DNA from: Frankiaceae bacterium
Lineage (GTDB): Bacteria; Actinomycetota; Actinomycetes; BP-191
NCBI GenBank assembly: GCA_035556555.1
Contig: DATMES010000027.1
Coordinates: 62,001 to 126,000, forward strand
Direction of reading: 5' to 3'
DNA length: 64,000 nucleotides
Position numbers and translations under genes: made by a program. This document shows, piece after piece, positions 51,758-63,932 of this stretch (position 1 is its first letter; each line of letters begins with the position of its first letter). The notes beneath the pieces were generated by a model. That model had not been told where the DNA came from. It searched no databases and saw only the letters and a list, made by a program, of their open reading frames with translations.

Positions 51758-54421
51758 ATGAAGTCGGCGGAGATCAAGCGGCGGTTCCTCGACTACTTCG
51801 GCAACCGCGACCACACCGTCGTCCCGAGCGCGAGCCTCATCGCGGACGACCCGACGCTGCTGCTCGTCAACGCCGGCATGGTGCCGTTCAAGCCGTACTT
51901 CCTCGGCGAGCAGCCTGCCCCGTGGCCGCGCGCCGCGAGCATCCAGAAGTGCGTCCGCACCCTCGACATCGACGAGGTCGGCAAGACCACGCGGCACAAC
52001 AGCTTCTTCCAGATGGCCGGCAACTTCTCGTTCGGCGACTACTTCAAGGACCGCGCGATCCCGCTCGCCTGGGAGCTGCTGACCAAGCCGACGCACGAGG
52101 GCGGCTTCGGCTTCGACGAGTCGCGGCTGTGGGCCACCGTCTACCTCGACGACGACGAGTCGTACGGCATCTGGCGCTCGGTCGGCGTCCCCGAGGACCG
52201 CATCCAGCGCCGCGGCATGGACGACAACTTCTGGTCGATGGGCGTGCCCGGTCCCTGCGGCCCCTGCTCGGAGATCTACTTCGACCGCGGCCCGGCGTAC
52301 GGCATCGACGGCGGCCCGATCAAGGACGAGGAGCGCTTCCTCGAGGTCTGGAACAACGTCTTCATGCAGTACGAGCGCGGCCCCCAGACCGGTCCGGGCA
52401 AGAGCGACTACGACATCCTCGGCGACCTGCCCAGCAAGAACATCGACACCGGCATGGGCTTCGAGCGCATGGCGACGATCCTGCAGGGCGTCGAGAACCT
52501 CTACGAGATCGACACCACCCGCCTCATCCTCGACAAGGCGGCGGAGCTGACCGGCACGCGGTACGGCGCCGGCAACGACTCCGACGTGCGCCTGCGCGTC
52601 GTCGCCGACCACGCCCGCACCGCCGTCATGCTCATCGGCGACGGCGTGACCCCCGGCAACGAAGGCCGCGGCTACGTCCTCCGCCGGATCATGCGGCGTA
52701 CGACGCGTGCCATGCGCCTGCTCGGCGCGCACGAGCCGACGATGCGCGAGCTGGTGCAGGCCGGCATCGACGCGATGGGCCCGCAGTACCCCGAGCTGGT
52801 CACCGACGCCGGGCGCATCCACACGGTGGCGGCGGCCGAGGAGGCGTCGTTCCTGGAGACGCTGACGAAGGGCGTCACGCTGTTCGAGGCCGCGGTGCCC
52901 GAGGCCAAGGCCAAGGGCGTGCTGTCGGGCGAGCGGGCGTTCGCGCTGCACGACACGTACGGCTTCCCCATCGACCTCACGCTCGAGATGGCCGCCGAGC
53001 AGGGGCTGAAGGTCGACGAGGCGGAGTTCCGCCTGCTCATGGACGAGCAGCGCCGCCGCGCCAAGCAGGCGCACAAGGCGCGCGCGCTCGGGCACACCGA
53101 CGTGGCTGCGTACCGCGCGCTGCTCGACCGGGTCGGCGCGACGACGTTCACCGGGTACGCCGAGGTCGACTCGGAGGCCACGGTCCGCGGGCTGCTCGCC
53201 GAGTCGGGCCAGGTCGACGTGGCGCAGGAGGGCGACGAGGTCGAGCTGGTGCTCGATCGGACGCCGTTCTACGCCGAGGCCGGCGGCCAGCTCGCCGACA
53301 CCGGCTGGCTGGAGGTGCCGTACGCCGAGGTCGAGGTTCTCGACACGCAGCGCCCGCTGCCCGACCTCGTCGTGCACCGGATCCGCGTCAAGGCCGGCGA
53401 GGTCCGCGCCGGCGCGCAGGTCGGCGCGCACGTCGACGTCGAACGCCGCCGCGCCATCTCCCGCGCCCACACCGCGACCCACCTGGTGCACAAGGCGTTC
53501 CGTGCCGCTCTCGGTGACTCGGCCACCCAGGCAGGCTCGCTCAACGCCCCAGGCCGCCTGCGCTTCGACTTCGCCTCGCCGTCGGCCGTGCCGCCGTCGG
53601 TGCTCGCCGACGTCGAGGACACCATCAACGCCGTCCTCATCGACGACCTCGAGGTCCGCGCGTTCGTCACGACGCAGGACGAGGCGCGGCGGATCGGCGC
53701 GATGGCGCTGTTCGGCGAGAAGTACGGCGAGGCCGTCCGCGTCGTCGAGGTCGGCGACTACGCCCGCGAGCTCTGCGGCGGCACCCACGCCGCGCGTTCC
53801 GGGCAGCTCGGCCTCGTCAAGCTGCTCGGCGAGGCCTCCATCGGCGCCGGCGTACGCCGCGTCGAGGGACTGGTCGGGCTCGACGCGTTCCGGTTCCTGG
53901 CCAAGGAGCACGTGCTGGTCTCGCAGCTCGCGGAGCAGTTCAAGGCGCAGCCCGAGGAGATCCCCGACCGGATCGCGGCGCTGACGGCTCGGCTGCGCGA
54001 CGCCGAGAAGGAGCTCGAACGCCTCAAGGCCGGCGCCGTCCTCGCCGCGTCCGGCGGGCTCGCCGACCAGGCCACCGACGTCGACGGCGTCGCGGTCGTC
54101 GCCACCGAGGCGCCCCAGGGCACCAGCGTCGACGACGCGCGCAAGCTCGCTCTCGACATCCGCGGCCGCATCGAGCCGAAGCGCCCCGCCGTCGTCGTCG
54201 TCGCCGTGCGCGGCGACGGCAAGGCCAACGTCGTCGTCACCGTCGGCCAGACCGCGCAGCAGCGCGGGCTCAAGGCCGGCGCGCTCGTCCGCGAGCTGGC
54301 CCCCGTGCTCGGCGGCGGTGGCGGCGGCAAGGACGAGCTGGCCATCGCCGGCGGCTCCAGGGCCGAGGGCGTCCCCGACGCGCTCGCGATGGTCACCCGC
54401 CTGGTCTCCGCGGCGCTGTGA
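51758..54421 (+). CDS. alaS: Alanyl-tRNA synthetase
   Basis: An 887-residue class II synthetase, full length. Catalytic domain 1-440 ([18 protein letters not shown] near 72-89, then [18 protein letters not shown]), editing domain with the zinc ligands HTATH (near 572-576) and CGGTH (near 671-675), and a C-terminal domain with DHH-like C-Ala ([15 protein letters not shown]). The ATG directly follows a family G spacer repeat. No T-box or other leader is seen. It is overlapped by ruvX through GTGA. Confidence 0.98.
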
Positions 54422-54825
54422 GGCGAGGGGTGCGCATCGGGGTCGACGTGGGCACCGTCCGCGTCGGCGTCGCCGCGAGCGACCCCGACGGCATCCTCGC
54501 CACACCCGTTGCCACGCTGGACCGCGCATCGGCGCTCGACGACCTCGTCGCGCTCGTGACCGAGCGCGCGGCCGTCGAGGTGGTCGTCGGCCACCCGCGC
54601 CACCTCTCCGGCGCGAGCGGCGTCTCCGCGCGCGACGCGGAGGCGTTCGCGGAGTCACTGCGGGAGCGGGTCGAGGTGCCCGTACGCCTCGTCGACGAGC
54701 GCCTCACCACCGTCACCGCCACCCGCACGCTCGCCGAGCGCGGCGTCCGCGGGAAGGCGCAGCGCGCCGTCGTGGATCAGGCCGCCGCCGTCGCCATCCT
54801 CCAGTCGGCCCTGGACGGGTCATGA
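54418..54825 (+). CDS. ruvX: RuvX/YqgF pre-16S rRNA nuclease
   Basis: A 135-residue RNase H-fold protein of the YqgF family, needed in E. coli for 5' end maturation of 16S rRNA. It shows [13 protein letters not shown] at the start (first Asp), [10 protein letters not shown] near 59, [10 protein letters not shown] near 92-101 (Asp-Glu-Arg) and [11 protein letters not shown] near 118. It is overlapped by alaS and mltG, the normal actinobacterial order. Confidence 0.95.
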
Positions 54826-55919
54826 GCGACTTCCTCGCCGAGGACACAGGCCCGGCGCCGCGCAAGAAGCGCGGCGCCACCGGCGTGATCGTGGCGCTGG
54901 TCGTGCTGCTCGTCATCGGCGGGGGAGCGGTGCTCGGCGGGAAGGCGCTGCTGTCGCGCTTCGGCGGCCCGGCGCCCGACTACGACGGTCCCGGCACCGG
55001 CGAGGCGAAGGTCCAGGTCGTCAAGGGCGCCAGCGCGTCGGCGATCGGCGAGGCGCTCGAACGCGCCGGCGTCGTCAAGAGCGCCGCGGCGTTCCGCGAC
55101 GTCGCCCGCGACGACGAGCGCGCGCTGAAGATCCAGCCTGGCTGGTACCGCCTGCGCCTGCAGATGAAGGCCGCGCTCGCGCTCGACCTGCTCCTCGACC
55201 CCAAGGCGCGGCTGCGCTCGCGCGTGACGATCCCCGAGGGCACGACCGTCGCACGCACGCTGGAGCTCATCGCGAAGAACGTCTCCGAGGTCCCGCTGGC
55301 ATCCCTCAAGGAGGCCGCCAAGAACACCGCCGCGCTCGGCCTCCCGCCGTACGCCAAGGGCCGGCTCGAAGGCTTCCTCTTCCCGGCGACGTACGACTTC
55401 GAGCCAGGCACGTCCGCCGTCGAGATCCTCAGCACGCTCGTCGCGGAGTTCGAGGTGCGCGCCGAACGCCTGCAGATCGAGGAGCGCGCGAAGGCGCTGA
55501 AGATCACGCCGTACCAGGCGCTCATCATCGCCTCGCTCGTCGAGGGCGAGACCGGCGACGCGAGCGACCGCGGCAAGGTCGCGCAGGTCGTCTACAACCG
55601 GCTCGAGCTGCCCATGCGGCTGCAGTTCGACTCGACGGTGAAGTACGCGTACGGCCTCCAGGGCGTCGTCAAGACGCGGCTGCTGTACCGCGACCTCGAG
55701 ATCGACTCGGCGTACAACACGTACCGCCACGACGGCCTCCCGCCGGCACCGATCAACTCGCCGGGCGAGGCGGCGTTCGACGCGGCGCTGAACCCCACCC
55801 CGGGGGACTGGCTCTACTTCGTGGTCATCGACAAGAACGGCAAGTCGGCGTTCGCGGAGACCGCGGAGGAGTTCGCGGTCCTCAAGGAGCGGTACCGAAG
55901 GGAAGTGCTCGGACAGTGA
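54822..55919 (+). CDS. mltG: Endolytic murein transglycosylase MltG
   Basis: A 365-residue membrane-anchored enzyme that cuts new glycan strands and is thought to set their length. A membrane helix lies at about 22-44, a LysM-like segment at about 65-115 ([12 protein letters not shown]) and the YceG catalytic domain follows: [24 protein letters not shown], and [10 protein letters not shown], where Glu near 237 is catalytic, then [25 protein letters not shown] and GTGA overlaps join it to ruvX and aroE. Confidence 0.97.
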
Positions 55920-56695
55920 AGGCCGCGATCGTCGGGTCGCCCGTGCAGCACTCGTTGTCACCCGTGATCTGGCGGGCGGCGTACGAGTCGCTGGGGCTGA
56001 AGGACTGGACGTACGACGTCGTCGAGACCGACGAGCCTGGCCTGGCGCGGCACCTGCGGGTGCGCGACTACGCGGGGCTGTCCGTGACGATGCCGCTCAA
56101 GCACGCCGCCGCGCGGCTCGTCGACCGGCGGGTGGGACGTACCGGCGGGTCGGTCAACACGATCGTCTTCACCGACGACGGGACCGAGGGCCACAACACC
56201 GACGTCGACGGCGTCTCCGCCGCGCTGACGCAGGTCGCGCCGTCCGGCGTGGGGCGGGTGGCGATCCTCGGCGCGGGTGGCACCGCGGCCGCGGCGGTCC
56301 TGGCGGCGAGCGCGCTTCGCGCCACGGCCATCACCCTCGTCGCCCGCAACGCCGGGCCCGCCAACGACCTCCGCGAGAAGACCGGCGGCGTCGCGCACTT
56401 CGCGCCGTGGACGCACGTACGCGAGGAGGTCGACAAGGCCGACGTCGTCGTCAACACCACACCCAAGCACGCCGCCGACGAGCTCGCGAAGGGCTGGCGC
56501 GGCAAGCCGCTGGTCGACGTCCTGTACGACCCGTGGCCGACGGCGCTCGCCGCCGCCGCCCAGGCGGGCGGGCACCCCGTCGCGGGCGGGCTCGTGGTGC
56601 TCGTGCACCAGGCCGTACGCCAGATCGAGCTCGTCACGGGCAAGCGCCCCGACCCGGCTGTCCTCATGGCCGCCGCCGAGGCCGCCGCCCGCTGA
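55916..56695 (+). CDS. aroE: Shikimate dehydrogenase
   Basis: A 259-residue NADP-linked enzyme reducing 3-dehydroshikimate in aromatic amino-acid synthesis. Substrate motifs are GSPVQHSLSPVIWR (near 6-19) and SVTMPLKHAA (near 58-67, with the catalytic Lys-His); NTDVDGVSAAL near 91 follows, and the NADP loop is LGAGGTAAAAVL near 119. Slightly shorter than the E. coli enzyme but complete. It ends the alaS operon, followed by two tandem palindromes. Confidence 0.96.
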   Translation: MKAAIVGSPVQHSLSPVIWRAAYESLGLKDWTYDVVETDEPGLARHLRVRDYAGLSVTMPLKHAAARLVDRRVGRTGGSVNTIVFTDDGTEGHNTDVDGVSAALTQVAPSGVGRVAILGAGGTAAAAVLAASALRATAITLVARNAGPANDLREKTGGVAHFAPWTHVREEVDKADVVVNTTPKHAADELAKGWRGKPLVDVLYDPWPTALAAAAQAGGHPVAGGLVVLVHQAVRQIELVTGKRPDPAVLMAAAEAAAR

Positions 56696-56764: not shown

Positions 56765-56782
56765 CGCCGCCCCCCGCTAAAG

Positions 56783-56839
56783 GATCACCTGTGTCCCTCG
56801 CGCGTGCTCGCGACCGTCGCTGAGAGGACACAGGTGATC
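56783..56839. repeat. 57-bp palindrome after aroE (second of two)
   Basis: Perfect 14-bp arms GATCACCTGTGTCC and GGACACAGGTGATC with a 29-base loop. Same design as families A and B, different sequence. Confidence 0.85.
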
Positions 56840-56853
56840 ATCCAGCGCGAGGG

Positions 56854-56955: not shown

Positions 56956-56983
56956 TCAAGGGTTCTCCGGCCACGGCCGATGC
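56956..56983 (+). promoter_or_regulatory. FliA/WhiG-type promoter of the pilus control operon
   Basis: TCAA, 16 bases, GCCGATGC: the layout of sigma-28 class promoters (-35 TAAA or TCAA, -10 GCCGATAA). It is 42 bp upstream of the Roadblock ATG. A second copy with the same 16-base spacing and the same following CTCCG occurs at 63905. Confidence 0.68.
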
Positions 56984-57024
56984 TCCGTACTGACGCGAGA
57001 GCCGAGTTCCCGAGGAGTCTCCCC

Positions 57025-57534
57025 ATGGCCGAGGTGCGCAGCGAGTCCCGAGCGGTACGACTGGACCGGGCCATCCGGGATCTGCTCACGCAGACCGCGG
57101 AGATCGAGGCCGCGGCGGTCGTGTCGTTCGACGGCCTCCCCATGGCCTCGGCGCTGCCCGCCGGCATGGACGAGGACCGCGTGGCCGCGATGAGCGCCGC
57201 GCTGCTCTCCCTGGGTGAGCGCGCGACCGTCGGCCTCGGCCGCGGCGAGCTCAACCAGGTCTTCATCGAGGGCGAGGACGGCACCGTCTTCCTCGTCTCC
57301 GCCGACAACGAGGCCGTGCTCGTCGCCGTCGCCGCCAAGGGCGCCAAGACCGGCATGATGCTGTACGAGGTGAAGCGCACCGCCGCCACCGTCGCCGACG
57401 TCCTCCGCGGCGACGACCCGAGCTCCGACGAGGCGGCCTTCGAGGCGCTGGCCGCGATGAGCAGCGAGCCCACCCCGGCGTACGCCCCCCTGCCGGCCGC
57501 CGTGCCCGAGGCCAACGGCTCGGCCTGGGCCTAG
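57025..57534 (+). CDS. Roadblock/LC7 (MglB-like) protein
   Basis: A 169-residue protein with a Roadblock/LC7 domain at about 15-125: LDRAIRDLLTQTAEIEAAAVVSFDGLPMASAL, then MDEDRVAAMSAALLSLGERA, and a late strand pair VFIEGEDGTVFLVSADN. In Myxococcus the Roadblock protein MglB is the GTPase-activating partner of MglA; streptomycete homologues (CvnB) sit with small GTPases too. A GTPase gene follows two genes later in this operon. The C-terminal 40 residues are a flexible Pro/Ala tail. ATG with CGAGGAG upstream. Confidence 0.93.
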   Translation: MAEVRSESRAVRLDRAIRDLLTQTAEIEAAAVVSFDGLPMASALPAGMDEDRVAAMSAALLSLGERATVGLGRGELNQVFIEGEDGTVFLVSADNEAVLVAVAAKGAKTGMMLYEVKRTAATVADVLRGDDPSSDEAAFEALAAMSSEPTPAYAPLPAAVPEANGSAWA

Positions 57535-57561
57535 GCGGAGAAGGCGACGGAGAACCGTTCC

Positions 57562-58626
57562 ATGACTCTCGAAGGCTCGCTCGACGCGTTCAGCCTCCCT
57601 GACATCTTCCAGTTGCTGTCGTTCACGAAGAAGACGGGCGCGCTGCACATCACCGGCCCCGCGACGAAGGGCATCGTCCACTTCGCCACGGGCTCGGTGA
57701 CCGGCGCCGCCTCCGACGTGAGCCGCCAGTCGCTGGGCCGCCGCCTCGTCGGCGCCGGGCTGCTGGACGACGCGCAGCTCTCGGCCGCCCTGGAGGCGGT
57801 CCGCAACGACCCCACGCTCGGCCTCGGCAAGGCCGCCCACGACGCGGGCGCGGTCGACGACGGCGTGCTCCACGAGCTGGTCGTCGAGCAGGCCACCGAC
57901 GCGGTGTTCGACCTGCTGCGCTGGACGCGGGGCGACTTCGCGTTCATGGCCGACGAGGCCAACCCCGACGACCTCGGCGTCTCCCTGAACGTCGAGGAGG
58001 TCATCACCGAGGGCCGCCGCCGGATGGAGGAGTGGGAGGGCCTCACCAAGGCCGTCCCCGCCCCCGACGCGGTCGTCAGCGTGGTGCTCACCCCCGGCGA
58101 GGACACGTCCGTCACGACCGACGAGTGGGCGCTGCTCGCGCTCGCCGACGGGCACCGTACGGTCGCCGACCTCGTCCGCCTCACGGGCCGCGGTGAGTTC
58201 GCCACCGTGAAGACGCTCGCCGCGCTGGTGGACCGCAAGCTGGTCACGATCCGCCGCGGCGACAACGACGCCAACGACTCCGTCGCCGCGCTCGTACGCC
58301 GGCAGGCCGAGCTGTCGGCGCTGGAGGGCCGCCCCGAGCCCGCCGCTCAGCCGCGCAGGTCCGAGCCCGCCCGCGAGACCGCCAGGAAGCCGGAGAACGT
58401 CCCCGACGTCGTGCCGCAGCGCCCCGAGCCGATCGTGTCGCGACGCCCCGACTACCCGGAGGAGCGCGTCTCCGTCCCCGGCACGCGCCGGCCACCGGCC
58501 GACACGACCGAGACCGACGGCTCCGCGGCCATCGCCACCGAGACCGTCGCCGCGCTGATCGAGCGCGACCCCAGCGTCAACAAGAGCCTGCTGCTGCGTC
58601 TCATCGCCGGTGTGAGGGGGTTGTAA
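57562..58626 (+). CDS. DUF4388 (PATAN) domain protein
   Basis: A 354-residue protein with a DUF4388/PATAN domain at the N-terminus (MTLEGSLDAFSLPDIFQLLSF, TKKTGALHITG, about 1-130), a helical winged-helix-like middle (about 190-240, EWALLALADGHRTVADLVRLTGR) and a Pro/Arg-rich, probably disordered region (250-330) before a final helix. In cyanobacteria, PATAN response regulators bind the pilus motor PilB to steer motility, and PilB is encoded three genes downstream here. There is no receiver domain in this version. It overlaps the GTPase start by one base (TAATG). Confidence 0.92.
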   Translation: MTLEGSLDAFSLPDIFQLLSFTKKTGALHITGPATKGIVHFATGSVTGAASDVSRQSLGRRLVGAGLLDDAQLSAALEAVRNDPTLGLGKAAHDAGAVDDGVLHELVVEQATDAVFDLLRWTRGDFAFMADEANPDDLGVSLNVEEVITEGRRRMEEWEGLTKAVPAPDAVVSVVLTPGEDTSVTTDEWALLALADGHRTVADLVRLTGRGEFATVKTLAALVDRKLVTIRRGDNDANDSVAALVRRQAELSALEGRPEPAAQPRRSEPARETARKPENVPDVVPQRPEPIVSRRPDYPEERVSVPGTRRPPADTTETDGSAAIATETVAALIERDPSVNKSLLLRLIAGVRGL

Positions 58627-59192
58627 TGGCGCCTCGCAAGAAGCTCAACGCCGGCAAGAAGATCGTGGTCACCGGGCCGTTCTCGGCCGGCAAGACCACG
58701 CTCATCCGGACGATCAGCGAGATCACCGTGCTGTCGACCGAGAAGGACATCACCGACGACACGCGGTCGCGCAAGACCGAGACGACCGTCGCGATGGACT
58801 TCGGCCGCATCACGATCGACCGCGAGCTCGTGCTCTACCTGTTCGGCACGCCCGGGCAGGAGCGCTTCGACTTCATGTGGGAGATCCTCGGCGAGGGGAT
58901 GCTCGGCTACGTCCTCCTGCTCGACTCCAGCAGGCCGGAGTCGGCGGAGGAGGGCCGGACGATCCTCGAGGCGTTCCGCCGGATGGCGCGGGTGCCGTAC
59001 GTCGTCGCCCTCAACCGCTCCGACGGCATCGACCCGGCCGAGGAGGCGCGAGTTCGCGAGACGCTCGACCTCGACCCCGACGTCCCCGTCGTGCCGTGCG
59101 ACGCCACCGACCGCGAGAGCGTCAAGGCCGTCCTGCTCGCCCTCCTGTACGCGGTCCTCGACTCCCTCGAAGCCGAACCGGCCAGGGCGTAG
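58626..59192 (+). CDS. Small Ras-like GTPase (MglA/CvnD-like)
   Basis: A 188-residue GTPase. P-loop GPFSAGKTT (near 17-25), a switch I region with two Thr (SRKTETTVAMDFG), G3 FGTPGQERFDFMWE (near 73-86) with Gly-Gln in the usual place, and G4 as NRSD (near 134) in place of NKxD, followed by DATDRES. It belongs to the bacterial small GTPases paired with Roadblock proteins: MglA in Myxococcus sets cell polarity and pilus placement; CvnD in Streptomyces belongs to conservons. Here no histidine kinase is present, unlike a true conservon. Confidence 0.94.
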   Translation: MAPRKKLNAGKKIVVTGPFSAGKTTLIRTISEITVLSTEKDITDDTRSRKTETTVAMDFGRITIDRELVLYLFGTPGQERFDFMWEILGEGMLGYVLLLDSSRPESAEEGRTILEAFRRMARVPYVVALNRSDGIDPAEEARVRETLDLDPDVPVVPCDATDRESVKAVLLALLYAVLDSLEAEPARA

Positions 59193-59196
59193 CGCC

Positions 59197-59466
59197 GTGC
59201 GCTGGCCCTGGCGGCGGCGCGAGAAGTGCGGCCGCGTCGTCTTCATCGGTACGTCGCCGTTCGACGTCGCGCGCGCGATCGCGGCCGTACCCACGCCGTC
59301 GCCCGTCGTCTCGGCGTTCGTGCCGGACGAGCCCGCGGAGCCGGAGGAGGAGCACGCCGGCGTCCAGCTCGGCTTCGCCGACGGCACCGTGATGACGCTC
59401 AGTGACGACGACCCGAGGGCAGTCGCGCTGAAGGCCGCCGCGGCTCGGCTAACCGGAATAGCCTGA
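59197..59466 (+). CDS. Small acidic protein between GTPase and PilB
   Basis: An 89-residue protein with a basic start (RWPWRRREKCG) and an acidic middle (EPAEPEEEH). No family is recognised. It lies four bases after the GTPase gene and 53 bp before pilB, in the same direction, so it is part of the operon and may act with these products. Codon use matches the neighbours. Confidence 0.68.
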   Translation: MRWPWRRREKCGRVVFIGTSPFDVARAIAAVPTPSPVVSAFVPDEPAEPEEEHAGVQLGFADGTVMTLSDDDPRAVALKAAAARLTGIA

Positions 59467-59519
59467 TTCAGCAAACGGCCCAACGCGCCGATACGTCCTG
59501 CGGAGCCTGAGGAGGTGGC

Positions 59520-61184
59520 GTGAAGCAGCTCGGAGACATCCTGCTCGAAGGCGGGCTGGTCACGTCCGACCAGCTCCAGCAGGCCGTGGCGGAGCAGCAG
59601 CGCGTCGGCAAGTCCCTCGGCCGCGTGCTCGTCGAGCTCGGCATGGTCACCGAGAGCCAGCTCGTCGCGTCGCTCGCGCAGCAGATCGGCCTCCAGTTCG
59701 TCGACCTCACCGACCACCCGATCGACCCGTCCGCGTGCGCGCTCGTGCCCGACGCGGTGTCGCGCAGGCATACGGCGCTGCCGATCGGGTTCGAGGAGGG
59801 GCGCCTCGTCGTCGCGATGGCCGACCCCGCGAACGTGTTCGCGATGGACGACTTCCGCTCGATCACGGGCATGGAGGTCAAGCCTGTCGTCGCCACCAAG
59901 GCGGACGTCGTGGCGGCCATCAACCGCCTGAACCGCATGGACAGCGACATCGAGGACCTCACCGCGACGCTCGACGTCACGGACGAGGGCGACGACCTGT
60001 CCAAGGTCAAGGAGATCGTCGACGACGCGCCGATCGTCAAGTTCGTGAACCTGCTCATCACGCAGGCGATCCAGGACCGCGCCTCGGACATCCACATCGA
60101 GCCGTGCGAGCGGGACCTGCGCGTCCGCTTCCGCATCGACGGCGTGCTGCACGAGATCATGCGCTCGCCGAAGACGATCCAGTCGGGCGTGATCTCCCGA
60201 CTCAAGATCATGAGCGACATCAACATCGCCGAACGCCGCATCCCGCAGGACGGGCGCATGTCCGTCACCGCCAACGGCAAGAAGATCGACCTGCGCGTCG
60301 CGACCCTCCCCACCGTGTGGGGCGAGAAGGTCGTCATGCGAATCCTGGACAACTCCACCGCGATGCTGAAGCTCGCGGACCTCGGCTTCATGCCGGACAA
60401 CTTCACGCGCTACGAGGAGTCGTTCACCAAGCCGTACGGCATGATCCTCGTCACCGGCCCCACGGGCTCCGGCAAGTCGACGACGCTGTACGCCACGCTG
60501 AACATCGTCAACACGCCCGACCGCAACACCATCACGGTCGAGGACCCCGTCGAGTACCGCCTCCCCGGCATCAACCAGGTGCAGGTCAACGCGAAGGCCG
60601 GCCTGACGTTCGCCGCGGCGCTGCGGTCGATCCTGCGTTCCGACCCCGACATCGTGCTCATCGGTGAGATCCGCGACCACGAGACGGCGCAGATCGCCAT
60701 CGAGGCCGCGCTCACCGGTCACCTCGTGCTGACGACGCTGCACACGAACGACGCGCCGTCGGCCATCACGCGCCTCATCGAGATGGGCATCGAGCCGTTC
60801 CTCGTCGGCTCCGCCCTCGACTGCGTTCTCGCGCAACGGCTCGCCCGCCGCCTCTGCTCGAAGTGCAAGGAGGCGTACCAGCCGAGCGAGGAGTCGCTGG
60901 TGCACGCGCGGTTCCCGTGGACGCCGGGGGAGCCGGTGCCGACGCTGTACAGGCCGGTCGGCTGCTCCAACTGCTCCAAGACCGGCTACAAGGGCCGCAT
61001 GGCGCTGCACGAGGTCATGACCGTGACCGAGGACGTCGAACGCCTCGCCGTCGAGCGGCGTTCCGCCGACGAGATCGGGCGCATGGCGCGTAGCCAGGGC
61101 ATGTCGACGCTGCGCGCCGACGGCATGGGCAAGGTCCTCCTCGGGCACACGTCGCTCGAGGAGATCCTCCGCGTCGTCGTCTGA
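59520..61184 (+). CDS. pilB: Type IV pilus assembly ATPase PilB/GspE
   Basis: A 554-residue hexameric motor for pilus extension. The N-terminal MshEN domain (about 1-150; GDILLEGGLVTSDQLQQAV) can bind cyclic di-GMP in some relatives. Then come a linker, the ATPase with Walker A GPTGSGKST (near 315), the Asp box TITVEDPVEY, Walker B ILRSDPDIVLIGEIRD and the His box LTTLHTND, and the zinc site CSKC...CSNC (near 448-484). The GTG has a GAGGAGGTG site. It is the last gene of the operon; no pilC, pilT, pilin or prepilin peptidase lies in the window. Confidence 0.97.
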   Translation: MKQLGDILLEGGLVTSDQLQQAVAEQQRVGKSLGRVLVELGMVTESQLVASLAQQIGLQFVDLTDHPIDPSACALVPDAVSRRHTALPIGFEEGRLVVAMADPANVFAMDDFRSITGMEVKPVVATKADVVAAINRLNRMDSDIEDLTATLDVTDEGDDLSKVKEIVDDAPIVKFVNLLITQAIQDRASDIHIEPCERDLRVRFRIDGVLHEIMRSPKTIQSGVISRLKIMSDINIAERRIPQDGRMSVTANGKKIDLRVATLPTVWGEKVVMRILDNSTAMLKLADLGFMPDNFTRYEESFTKPYGMILVTGPTGSGKSTTLYATLNIVNTPDRNTITVEDPVEYRLPGINQVQVNAKAGLTFAAALRSILRSDPDIVLIGEIRDHETAQIAIEAALTGHLVLTTLHTNDAPSAITRLIEMGIEPFLVGSALDCVLAQRLARRLCSKCKEAYQPSEESLVHARFPWTPGEPVPTLYRPVGCSNCSKTGYKGRMALHEVMTVTEDVERLAVERRSADEIGRMARSQGMSTLRADGMGKVLLGHTSLEEILRVVV

Positions 61185-61196
61185 CGGTCGCGGCCG

Positions 61197-61649
61197 TCAG
61201 CCGATCCCGCCGACGGCGTCCAGCGCCTTCTCGTCCCAGAGAGGCGCCACCTTCGGGCAGTCCGGGTAGTTCCACGGGTCGCCCGCGGCTGGCGACCCCG
61301 ACCCCGGGCCGGGCGACGGCACCGTCACCTGGAGCTCGGTCACCGCCTCGACCGTCTGCTGGACGAGACGCTGGGTCAGCACCTGCGCGTCGTCGACGCT
61401 CTCGAACACGTCGTCGGGGTTGCGCGCCGTCATCGCCGGGACGCAGTACTGGCAGTGCCAGTCCACGAGGTACACGTGCGTGTCCTCGAACTTCTGCCGC
61501 GGCGCCAAGCGCGCCACCAGGACGTACTCCTTGGTCGGCTCGTCCCAGCGGTAGAACGAGCACGACTCGGAGGCCGCGGCAGGCGACACGGGGGCGAGCA
61601 GCGCCGCGCCGATCAGGAGGGCAGGCAGGCCGCGCCAGAGCGTTGTCAT
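61197..61649 (-). CDS. Exported CxxC protein linked to ECF sigma factor
   Basis: A 150-residue protein with a signal peptide (1-28, ends SPAAAS) and a mature part of about 120 residues. Cysteines are at SCSFYRW, DWHCQYC and PDCPK; the CQYC pair resembles a redox or metal-binding motif, but the surrounding fold is not recognisably thioredoxin. Pro/Gly/Ser-rich segment near 120. The ATG overlaps the stop of the sigma-factor gene (ATGA), so the two are translationally coupled, which points to a shared signalling task outside the cell. Confidence 0.8.
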   Translation of the reverse strand: MTTLWRGLPALLIGAALLAPVSPAAASESCSFYRWDEPTKEYVLVARLAPRQKFEDTHVYLVDWHCQYCVPAMTARNPDDVFESVDDAQVLTQRLVQQTVEAVTELQVTVPSPGPGSGSPAAGDPWNYPDCPKVAPLWDEKALDAVGGIG

Positions 61650-62602
61650 TCGTCTCCTTCGGGGGTGGGACGCCGGGACTCCTCCGGCGGGGCGGTGTTG
61701 CAGGCGAAGCCGGTGGGGCTGAACCCGTAGCGGACGCAGTTCAGGAGCGGGAGGATCGGCGGGTCGGACGGGTCGGGCTCGACGCACGGGTCCGCGAAGT
61801 AGGGCGGGAAGTCGCACGGCGACAGCGTCGGCGGCGTGCGCGTCGGGCTCGGCAACGGGCGCGCAGCCTGTGACGGCAGCGGCGGCCTCGGCGCGGACGT
61901 CAGCACCGGCACGGCGGCGACTCGTACGACCCGTGCCGGCGCCGCCGCGCGCGTCACCGCGGGAGGCGTGGGCAGGGCGGCGGGCCGCGCCAGGGGCGGG
62001 GTCGCGAGCAGCGCGGCGGTACCCGCCGTGGCGACCGCGAGGCCTGCCGCGCCGACGGCGCCGACGTCGGGACGCGCCCAGCGCGCCACCAGGACCGAGA
62101 TCCCGGCGTACGTCCGCTCCAGCTCCGTGCGGGCACGCACGCGGACCCGGTACAGCAGCGTCTCGACGGTCTTGTACGACACCGCGAGGTGCTCGGCGAT
62201 CTCCTGCGGCGACTGCCCGGCGGCCCGCGCCAGGACGACGTCGCGCTGGCGGGCCGGCAGGTCGGCGAGGCGTTCGGTGACCCAGGCGGCCTCCGCGCGG
62301 TCGCAGACCGCCTCGTCGATGCCGGGCTCGTCCGCCGTGCGCGCCGTCAGCTTGGCCGTCACGCGGGTGGTGTGGGCGTGCGCCCGGTAGTGGTCGGTGC
62401 AGAGCCTGCGGGTGGTCACGACGAGGAAGCCGGCGACGTTGGACTCGTCGAGCCCGGGAAACGTGACGCAGCGGGTCAGCGCCTCCTGCACGCACGCCTC
62501 GGCGTCGCCGGGGTCGTGGACCAGGTGCCGGGCGATCGCGAGCAGGCGGGCGCGGTGCGGCAGCACGAGGTCCCAGCGCCTCGCGCGGTCGTCGTCGTCC
62601 AC
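61646..62602 (-). CDS. ECF sigma factor fused to membrane helix and outer tail
   Basis: A 318-residue protein. Region 2 lies at about 5-75 (RLLAIARHLVHDPGDAEACVQEAL, VVTTRRLCTDHYRAH) and region 4 at about 115-165 (LPARQRDVVLARAAGQSPQEIAEHL with recognition helix SYKTVETLLYRVR). After this comes a membrane segment (about 185-208, VGAVGAAGLAVATAG), a Pro/Ala-rich stretch and a 50-residue tail with four cysteines (SPCDFPPYFADPC, LLNC, FACNT). Anchoring a sigma factor to the membrane this way could tether or sense. GTG with GGGGAGGGG upstream. Coupled to the CxxC protein gene. Confidence 0.9.
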   Translation of the reverse strand: MDDDDRARRWDLVLPHRARLLAIARHLVHDPGDAEACVQEALTRCVTFPGLDESNVAGFLVVTTRRLCTDHYRAHAHTTRVTAKLTARTADEPGIDEAVCDRAEAAWVTERLADLPARQRDVVLARAAGQSPQEIAEHLAVSYKTVETLLYRVRVRARTELERTYAGISVLVARWARPDVGAVGAAGLAVATAGTAALLATPPLARPAALPTPPAVTRAAAPARVVRVAAVPVLTSAPRPPLPSQAARPLPSPTRTPPTLSPCDFPPYFADPCVEPDPSDPPILPLLNCVRYGFSPTGFACNTAPPEESRRPTPEGDE

Positions 62603-62628
62603 CCGTTCCCCTCCCCGTTCCGCGGTGC

Positions 62629-62645
62629 CCGTATCTCTGATACGG
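62629..62645. promoter_or_regulatory. 17-bp palindrome between divergent genes
   Basis: CCGTATCTCTGATACGG: seven-base perfect arms, three-base centre, between the ECF sigma gene and the exported protein gene. It may be an operator or an overlapping pair of promoter elements. The rest of the 156-bp gap shows no other clear signal. Confidence 0.5.
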
Positions 62646-62758
62646 CGGCGCGGCGCGCATCCCTCGGAAGAACTTTTCCCGCGGCGCGCCGTGAGGGATT
62701 CGCTGACGGCGGCCGTACCCCTGCCGTACGCAACGCCACTCAGGAGGGAAACCAACCC

Positions 62759-63835
62759 ATGCGATCCACCGCCCTGCGCCTCGGCACCGGCCTGCTGGCC
62801 GTCGCCGCCGCGTTCACCGGCATGACCGGGACGGCCACCGCCGGCGACGACCCGAAGGCAACCGGCGCCGCCGTCAGCGCCCTGTCGTCGGTGCCCTACG
62901 TCACGATCACCTCGGCCGGCCCCATCGGCTCCATCCACCTCGGCAACGAGCTCTCCTGCCAGGTCAACATCGCCTCGCCCGCGTCCACCGTCGTCGGCTC
63001 CGGTCTCGTCGGGTTCGGCGGCGGCGGGCAGGTCTACGGCCCGTCGCACGAGCCCGCGGACTGCGGCACGTTCCTGTCCTACGGGGGCATGCTGTACGGC
63101 CCCGACTTCTCGTCGCACGGGTACTCGGCGACGCCCTTCGGCTGGGGGAACCCGTACACGGCGTTCACGCCGGTCTCGCAGACGCCGCCGACGGGGTCCG
63201 GCACGCTCACCGACCCGTACATCGTCACCACGGTCGTCGACGCGGGCACGACCGGCATCCGGCTCACCCGGATCGACACGTACGTCACCGGGCGCACCGA
63301 CTACCGCAGCGACGTCGTCGTCACGAACACCACCGGCACCGCGCTGAGCGGGCTGCGGCTCTACCACGGTCTCGACTGCTACCTCGCGGGCAGCGACACC
63401 GGCACCGGCGTCGCCGTCGCCTCCGCGGCCACGGCGACGTCGCGCGTCGGCTGCACCAGCAACAACCGCACCATGCAGCTCGTCTCGCAGAGCGCCGGCA
63501 ACGGGTACTACGAGGACGACTACTGGGCCGTGTGGGAGCGGATCGACGGCCGCCTCCCGCTGCCGAACACCACGGACCCGACGCTGGTCGACAACGGCAT
63601 CGCGATCGACTGGGCGTTCGCCCTGCCGGCGCACGGGTCGGTGATCCGGTCGTTCCTCACGCAGTTCGTGAGCTCGCCGATCGTCATCTGGACCCCGGTC
63701 GACCCGATCCGGGTCGCCGTCGTCGTGCGGCCCGGCGAGTCCGCCACCGACCTGCCCGAGGCGGGGGTGCTCGTCGCCGTGTCGGCGGCCGGCGTGGAGC
63801 AGTCGTTCTCGCTGTGGGTGCCGACCGGGTCGTAA
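62759..63835 (+). CDS. Exported beta-rich protein, unknown
   Basis: A 358-residue protein with a signal peptide (cut after TATAG near 28). The mature part is rich in Thr, Ser, Gly and Tyr with many short beta strands (YVTITSAGPIGSIHLG, YRSDVVVTNTTGTALSGLRLYHGLDC), resembling adhesin or surface-layer type modules, and four cysteines. A region near 150-230 reads like a DUF11-type beta-sandwich, which is only a judgement by eye. No cell-wall anchor at the C-terminus. ATG with GGAGGG upstream. It diverges from the membrane-bound ECF sigma factor and could be its target. Confidence 0.85.
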   Translation: MRSTALRLGTGLLAVAAAFTGMTGTATAGDDPKATGAAVSALSSVPYVTITSAGPIGSIHLGNELSCQVNIASPASTVVGSGLVGFGGGGQVYGPSHEPADCGTFLSYGGMLYGPDFSSHGYSATPFGWGNPYTAFTPVSQTPPTGSGTLTDPYIVTTVVDAGTTGIRLTRIDTYVTGRTDYRSDVVVTNTTGTALSGLRLYHGLDCYLAGSDTGTGVAVASAATATSRVGCTSNNRTMQLVSQSAGNGYYEDDYWAVWERIDGRLPLPNTTDPTLVDNGIAIDWAFALPAHGSVIRSFLTQFVSSPIVIWTPVDPIRVAVVVRPGESATDLPEAGVLVAVSAAGVEQSFSLWVPTGS

Positions 63836-63844
63836 CGGCACGAA

Positions 63845-63904: not shown

Positions 63905-63932
63905 TCAAGGGGGGTTCCGCCGGTGCCGATGC
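63905..63932 (+). promoter_or_regulatory. FliA/WhiG-type promoter at the window edge
   Basis: TCAA, 16 bases, GCCGATGC, followed by CTCCG, as at 56956. Both copies are also preceded by CCGAACGG. It points right and should drive a gene starting just beyond 64000; the sequence from 63933 to 64000 holds no complete gene. Confidence 0.65.

Follow-up and report, generated by a model that had tools for sequence, protein, structure and literature searches.

A 64,000-nucleotide stretch of a Frankiaceae bacterium genome (assembly GCA_035556555.1, contig DATMES010000027.1, positions 62,001 to 126,000; here called the window) contains five adjacent plus-strand genes (57025–61184) encoding a Roadblock protein, a DUF4388 (PATAN) protein, a Ras-like GTPase, an 89-residue protein termed X, and PilB, the extension ATPase of the type IV pilus (T4P). 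The most probable interpretation, at roughly 55%, is that the locus carries a G-protein control module dedicated to T4P, consisting of a conservon-like core without a sensor kinase that is joined to the PilB motor. The gene order recurs in dozens of genomes, far beyond chance. A preliminary description made from the sequence alone had reported the co-directional run without a histidine kinase and the association of PilB with Roadblock, PATAN and MglA-type GTPase proteins. Both observations hold, and the association is conserved across actinobacterial classes.

The run begins with a Roadblock/LC7 protein of the MglB/CvnB type (57025–57534; Pfam PF03259, Robl_LC7, 66.5 bits), followed by the DUF4388 protein (57562–58626; PF14332, 91.6 bits) and a GTPase of the MglA family that resembles CvnD (58626–59192; TIGR00231, small_GTP, 47.6 bits against a cut-off of 42.5). 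X (59197–59466) has no Pfam or NCBIfam match, and PilB (59520–61184; T2SSE 482 bits) carries an N-terminal MshEN domain (84 bits). The start codon of the GTPase overlaps the DUF4388 stop (TAATG), and the gaps across the five genes are 27, 0, 4 and 53 bp. No histidine kinase adjoins the module, which has aroE upstream and X and PilB downstream. The conserved upstream flank alaS-ruvX-mltG-aroE (51758–56695, plus strand) fixes the insertion site. Downstream, after a few other genes and beyond the end of the window, lie genes for PilT, PilC, a CdiI_2-like protein, pilins, PilD, PilM, PilN and PilO, and aroC-aroK-aroB-aroQ come after them, so that the five-gene run opens a complete T4P locus flanked by aroE and aroC. 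The gene set (PilB, PilT, PilC, PilM, PilD and pilins) is that of a type IVa pilus, with PilB just under the TIGR02538 cut-off (657 versus 676 bits). Genome-wide there are one Roadblock match, one GTPase of the module kind and two DUF4388 genes; with a single Roadblock protein and a single such GTPase, no conservon was found elsewhere in the genome.

The sample of the class comprises 297 genomes, 36 of which carry this GTPase clade. Thirty of these have a close PilB on the contig of the GTPase, and in every one PilB is found downstream of the GTPase and on its strand, at a distance of 24 bp to 16 kb. The remaining six are drafts, and in four of them the GTPase is ~3 kb or less from a contig end. 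Synteny maps of the class genomes show the recurrent order alaS-ruvX-mltG-aroE-Roadblock-DUF4388-GTPase-pilB-pilT-pilC, and homologues sampled from other actinobacterial classes (47–65% identical) occur in the same kind of pilus locus in 28 of 28 cases, which disposes of the possibility, raised in the preliminary description, that the order occurs only here. The linkage is kept where aroE has been relocated between the GTPase and pilB (some families), where a second pilB lies ahead of the module (other lineages), and where pilin genes intervene (one locus from another class). In four lineages the GTPase gene ends directly at, or within, the PilB match. In two congeners and several other genomes 8–16 kb separate X or the GTPase from PilB. 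The earlier proposal of a single operon is therefore plausible in the window, given its short gaps, and where GTPase and PilB are in direct contact, but less so in the loci with such insertions. In three loci read (L047:8900–16900, L048:8700–19300 and L050:1200–10200) the insert between X and PilB consists of polysaccharide gene clusters of 8–11 kb.

The complementary arrangement is found in eight T4P-bearing sister genomes without the module, in which aroE directly precedes pilB; one further genome retains only a DUF4388-like gene at the aroE-pilB site. The joining of aroE to pilB in the eight relatives indicates that the module is either there or missing in its entirety at a single site. Where this could be tested, actinobacterial homologues of this GTPase clade were not found away from T4P, and no PilB is encoded nearby at ~45 named conservon loci. 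A published description of this module together with PilB was not found among open-licence literature. A mirror-tree (distance-correlation) test was uninformative, being dominated by species history. In one locus (L145), two divergent DUF4388-GTPase pairs lie beside a single T4P locus.

The C-terminus of the DUF4388 protein connects the module with conservons. In the window the protein ends in a tail helix with the sequence NKSLLLRLIAGVRGL (58582–58623, plus strand), and elsewhere in TKSLIMRIIDGIKRL; the tail is conserved in Actinomycetota, Chloroflexota and Aquificota as well as in conservon CvnC. CvnC (DUF742) proteins occupy the same gene slot, contain a winged helix, and have ends such as LLERVLSGLRRL. 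A 14-residue tail model trained on T4P DUF4388 tails only gives its top rank to the C-terminus in all 21 CvnC proteins tested, some of them closely related, and 0.04% of the other sequence windows in CvnC reach the median tail score. The winged-helix profiles of DUF4388 and CvnC proteins also align (hhalign E 7e-5, probability 63%). Pfam assigns the window protein to DUF4388, not DUF742, and a DUF742 match, below threshold, appears in one of 37 DUF4388 members; the tail and winged helix held in common with CvnC amount to a resemblance. Outside the actinobacteria, the tail lies at or within 4 residues of the C-terminus in nearly all GTPase-adjacent DUF4388 proteins of Chloroflexota, Aquificota and Caldisericota, and in a Chloroflexi metagenome-assembled genome (L171:529–1911) the DUF4388 domain, tail and GTPase share one open frame, either as a natural fusion or through a lost stop codon. 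The tail is absent from the second DUF4388 protein encoded in this genome, whose gene does not adjoin a GTPase gene. Its presence beside GTPases without PilB and in CvnC, together with this absence, shows that the tail tracks the GTPase and not the pilus. DUF4388-GTPase pairs from Anaerolineae (L149–L169) carry the tail and have no PilB within the stretch read.

By gene order and sequence, the module is a kinase-free sibling of the conservon core, retaining the order CvnB-CvnC-CvnD. The CvnB homologue MfpD is a GTPase-activating protein (GAP) for MfpB, and the CvnC homologue MfpC is reported to be a guanine-nucleotide exchange factor (GEF) for MfpB (PMC13343842, PMC13015309). Because of these roles, the Roadblock protein of the window, which matches 7f8m and CvnB5 (3leq) in the PDB, is predicted to be a GAP or scaffold for the GTPase, and the DUF4388 protein is probably its GEF or partner.

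The GTPase has the motifs G1 GPFSAGKTT and G3 GTPGQ with the catalytic glutamine, and, as G4, NRSD in place of NKxD. In an alignment of 33 T4P-linked orthologues the P-loop and GTPGQ are near invariant, as are TTVAMDFG and FMWE.LSEGMLG. The P-loop and PGQ are those of the MglA family, and MglA structures are among the PDB matches. G3 reads GTPGQ in all T4P-linked sequences, not TVPGQ with threonine at the place of the G3 Asp as in MglA Group 1 (Myxococcus MglA), and in sequence the GTPase is nearer to CvnD than to myxococcal MglA. In the tree, 42 conservon GTPases form one clade (support 100/97) with the window GTPase outside it, while deep branching among T4P-linked, Chloroflexota and conservon GTPases is weakly supported. 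The root and the deep forks of the tree are too weak to support a derivation of conservons from T4P modules.

The module is preceded by a WhiG/FliA (sigma-28)-type promoter sequence, TCAAG-N15-GCCGATG (56956–56982, plus strand), ~43 bp before the Roadblock ATG. An alternative Roadblock start at 56956 was rejected, as that position belongs to the promoter-like site and an ATG that has a ribosome-binding site occurs at 57025. The element occurs with equal spacing in both congeners, and of 38 module loci 13 have TCAAG...GCCGAT in front of the module (16 when looser matches are counted), compared with a chance rate of ~0.4% per locus in mononucleotide shuffles. A scan of the genome with a slightly looser pattern (TCAA, spacer 15–16) gave 10 matches, and a reversed control 4. 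Four of the 10 are correctly placed before genes, namely the module, PilT, the second DUF4388 gene and a GGDEF-EAL gene. The PilT site (63905–63931, plus strand) is ~70 bp before the start of the gene at position 64001, just outside the window. In relatives the site is rare, and several genomes have it at the module and directly past the pilB stop codon. The genome under study encodes a FliA/WhiG sigma factor near rpsB, and use of these promoters by WhiG/FliA seems likely from their sequence. In Rubrobacter, WhiG controls T4P and GGDEF/EAL genes (PMC8325347), and the promoter pattern of the module, PilT and GGDEF-EAL genes matches that arrangement. The remaining two sites were seen 69 bp upstream of the second DUF4388 gene and 88 bp before the GGDEF-EAL gene (L249, G000:C21, 5151–7336), the latter as in the Rubrobacter report.

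X belongs to a family of 29 proteins from the same gene slot that share VxLxFxDG(S/T) and a following helix, which adds weight to the earlier suggestion that it may be an adaptor. The window protein has a basic and aromatic N-terminus (MRWPWRRR), a disordered linker and a C-terminal beta-hairpin-helix domain; in its AlphaFold model residues 56–86 form the hairpin plus helix at a predicted local distance difference test (pLDDT) score of ~90, and the rest is disordered. N-termini across the family are basic and aromatic, amphipathic-looking, or apparent membrane helices (L124, L142). No member was seen outside T4P loci among the loci compared, and X was not searched for beyond these. These features suggest that X could be a membrane tether or adaptor.

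The AlphaFold model of the DUF4388 protein (pLDDT 86) consists of a PATAN beta core, a helical insert (57–119), a winged helix (~186–231), a disordered linker and a C-terminal helix (341–353). Members of the family range from 321 to 1437 residues, with a very variable linker and a conserved C-terminal end. A receiver domain has no match in the protein. The winged helix has MarR-like profile matches as well as structural matches. A Foldseek search with the model gave no match at E 0.001, and the sequence gave none in the PDB. The insert resembles the MshEN cyclic di-GMP (c-di-GMP) domain of MshE and PilF (5htl, 53 columns at 1.7 A; Z 5.3). MshEN is defined by two 24-residue motifs with Arg and Gln (PMC5013675). 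The c-di-GMP motif model matches 22 of 37 DUF4388 homologues (best E 9e-16), and the complete RLG...Q motif is kept in the second half of the insert in several other classes but has been lost in the class to which the window belongs. In the window the insert scores 18.2 bits against the cut-off of 38 and lacks the two-motif MshEN pattern. PilB itself scores 63.7 bits against the same cut-off; both Gln are present and both motif Arg are replaced (Q, S). The best VIA-align matches of the winged-helix region (model residues 162–234) are subunits of GATOR1, a Rag GTPase regulator (Z 9–10); the fold is common, and this is a lead only. The second DUF4388 protein (L245, G000:C54, 6728–9202; 824 aa) has an intact RLG...Q MshEN half-motif and ends in the basic sequence KKRKGLFGRG.

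As we infer the direction of the signal, the action on PilB, the role of X and any effect on localisation, an input would reach the DUF4388 protein via its PATAN/MshEN-like head, and the winged helix and C-terminal tail would act on the GTPase, probably as a GEF, with the Roadblock protein as its GAP. The GTP-bound GTPase would then act on PilB, perhaps assisted in most lineages by X with its membrane-anchored-looking N-terminus, and pilus assembly would be turned on or positioned. The likely order, PATAN protein to GTPase to perhaps X to PilB, is suggested by CvnC-type proteins acting as GEFs and CvnB-type proteins as GAPs. WhiG/FliA-type promoters may drive transcription of the module along with the pilus genes and would thereby connect it with the pilus regulon, linked to c-di-GMP, that is known from Rubrobacter. 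A fuller version is tentative and has clearly less than even odds: that in several classes a kinase-free relay (GAP Roadblock, PATAN-winged-helix GEF with a tethered tail, GTPase and membrane-anchored X) gates PilB directly and is co-regulated through WhiG and c-di-GMP, that the conservon is its kinase-bearing relative, and that the CvnC/DUF4388 tail is a general GTPase-engaging device of these exchange proteins.

Several observations weigh against a dedicated T4P control module of this kind. Many T4P-bearing relatives lack it, and it is therefore not essential to the pilus machine. In the stretches read, Chloroflexota DUF4388-GTPase pairs have no PilB, and the pair must therefore have uses besides pilus control. 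X is missing in several lineages, including those in which the GTPase abuts or overlaps PilB, and is thus not a universal link. Several lineages have a degenerate G4 motif, and the winged-helix profile match to CvnC is modest. The MshEN-like insert lacks the key Arg in the window's class, and Gln and Ser stand at the Arg positions of the PilB MshEN motifs.

Among the alternatives, the one put forward in the preliminary description is that the state of the GTPase is passed to the PATAN protein, which binds PilB directly and would be an effector and not a GEF. Cyanobacterial PATAN regulators do interact with PilB1 (PMC12288463), and the tail and the DUF4388-GTPase pairing suit an effector as well as a GEF. 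However, conservon CvnC, which has no connection with a pilus, carries this tail and winged helix too, and its homologue MfpC is reported as a GEF; the Chloroflexota pairs also lack a nearby PilB. Since the tail follows the GTPase even in loci without PilB and CvnC-type proteins act as GEFs, the PATAN protein is more likely upstream of the GTPase, and this direction of signalling is doubtful. It is less likely still that the module, while sharing the locus and the WhiG regulon, acts not on PilB but on gene expression through the DUF4388 winged helix, as proposed for CvnC8/CvnD8. The MarR-like and structural matches of that domain and the altered transcription in cvn8 mutants (PMC8510531) would fit, but the domain may be structural, the abutting or overlapping GTPase and PilB genes of some lineages point to the motor, and the linkage to the motor gene survives rearrangements. 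That the arrangement is mostly inherited synteny (alaS-ruvX-mltG-aroE-module-pilB) of functionally unlinked parts is highly improbable. The flank is indeed old and stable and distance correlations chiefly follow the species tree, but the linkage outlasts aroE moves, pilB duplication and 8–16 kb insertions, actinobacterial homologues of the clade were not seen apart from T4P where testable, and the module and PilT have the same promoter type.

The module resembles several known systems in part. It shares with conservons (CvnA-CvnB-CvnC-CvnD; Mfp) the order of Roadblock protein, winged-helix protein and MglA-family GTPase, the CvnC winged helix and tail, a CvnB-type Roadblock protein and GTPases that are ~50% identical. 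It differs in having no CvnA kinase, in a DUF4388/PATAN head where the conservon has a short DUF742 protein, in being joined to PilB and X, and in a GTPase that falls outside the conservon clade. The preliminary description, whose interpretation is partly supported, set the module sharply apart from conservons, and this contrast is not upheld. The MglA-MglB polarity module of Myxococcus and Thermus likewise has a Roadblock protein and an MglA-family GTPase, and a published link to T4P; the present module departs from it in its G3 and its CvnD-like sequence, and its run includes a PATAN-winged-helix protein and PilB. PATAN genes were reportedly noted near MglA/MglB genes by Makarova in 2006. 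Wuichet and Sogaard-Andersen (2014, PMC4316618) place them occasionally near such genes; the PilB neighbour, the common CvnC tail and the X family are not described in that paper as read here. In PixG and related cyanobacterial regulators a PATAN protein is likewise tied to the PilB motor, in their case by interaction with PilB1 (PMC12288463); the window protein has no receiver domain, has a winged helix and GTPase tail, and is encoded with a GTPase. The RsiG-WhiG switch of Rubrobacter T4P is alike in its WhiG-type promoters at T4P and GGDEF/EAL genes, but the paper (PMC8325347) does not mention a GTPase or Roadblock protein, whereas here the promoter precedes a G-protein module.

Although conservons are widespread, little is understood of how their CvnB-C-D core is used; here a sibling of that core is linked to a single evident output, the motor of the pilus, which makes the relay accessible through pilus counts and twitching. 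The clean presence or absence of the module at one chromosomal site offers natural controls, and the C-terminal tail is a concrete conserved target for how CvnC-type proteins act on GTPases. The association also suggests that MglA-type GTPases are linked to pili more widely than in the polarity system of myxobacteria alone.

Additional features were observed around the locus. No Rfam elements were found upstream of the module. The aroE-Roadblock gap contains a strong inverted repeat with 27-nt arms (56770–56852), and the arm occurs at this one place among the loci compared, being absent from the corresponding gaps of the two congeners. Between PilB and PilT (61197–63840) are a minus-strand sigma-factor-like gene and genes for secreted-protein-like products on both strands. 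The CdiI_2-like immunity gene (PF18593, 66.9 bits; L009:5858–6205) lies in the T4P locus, with PilC on one side and the first pilin on the other.

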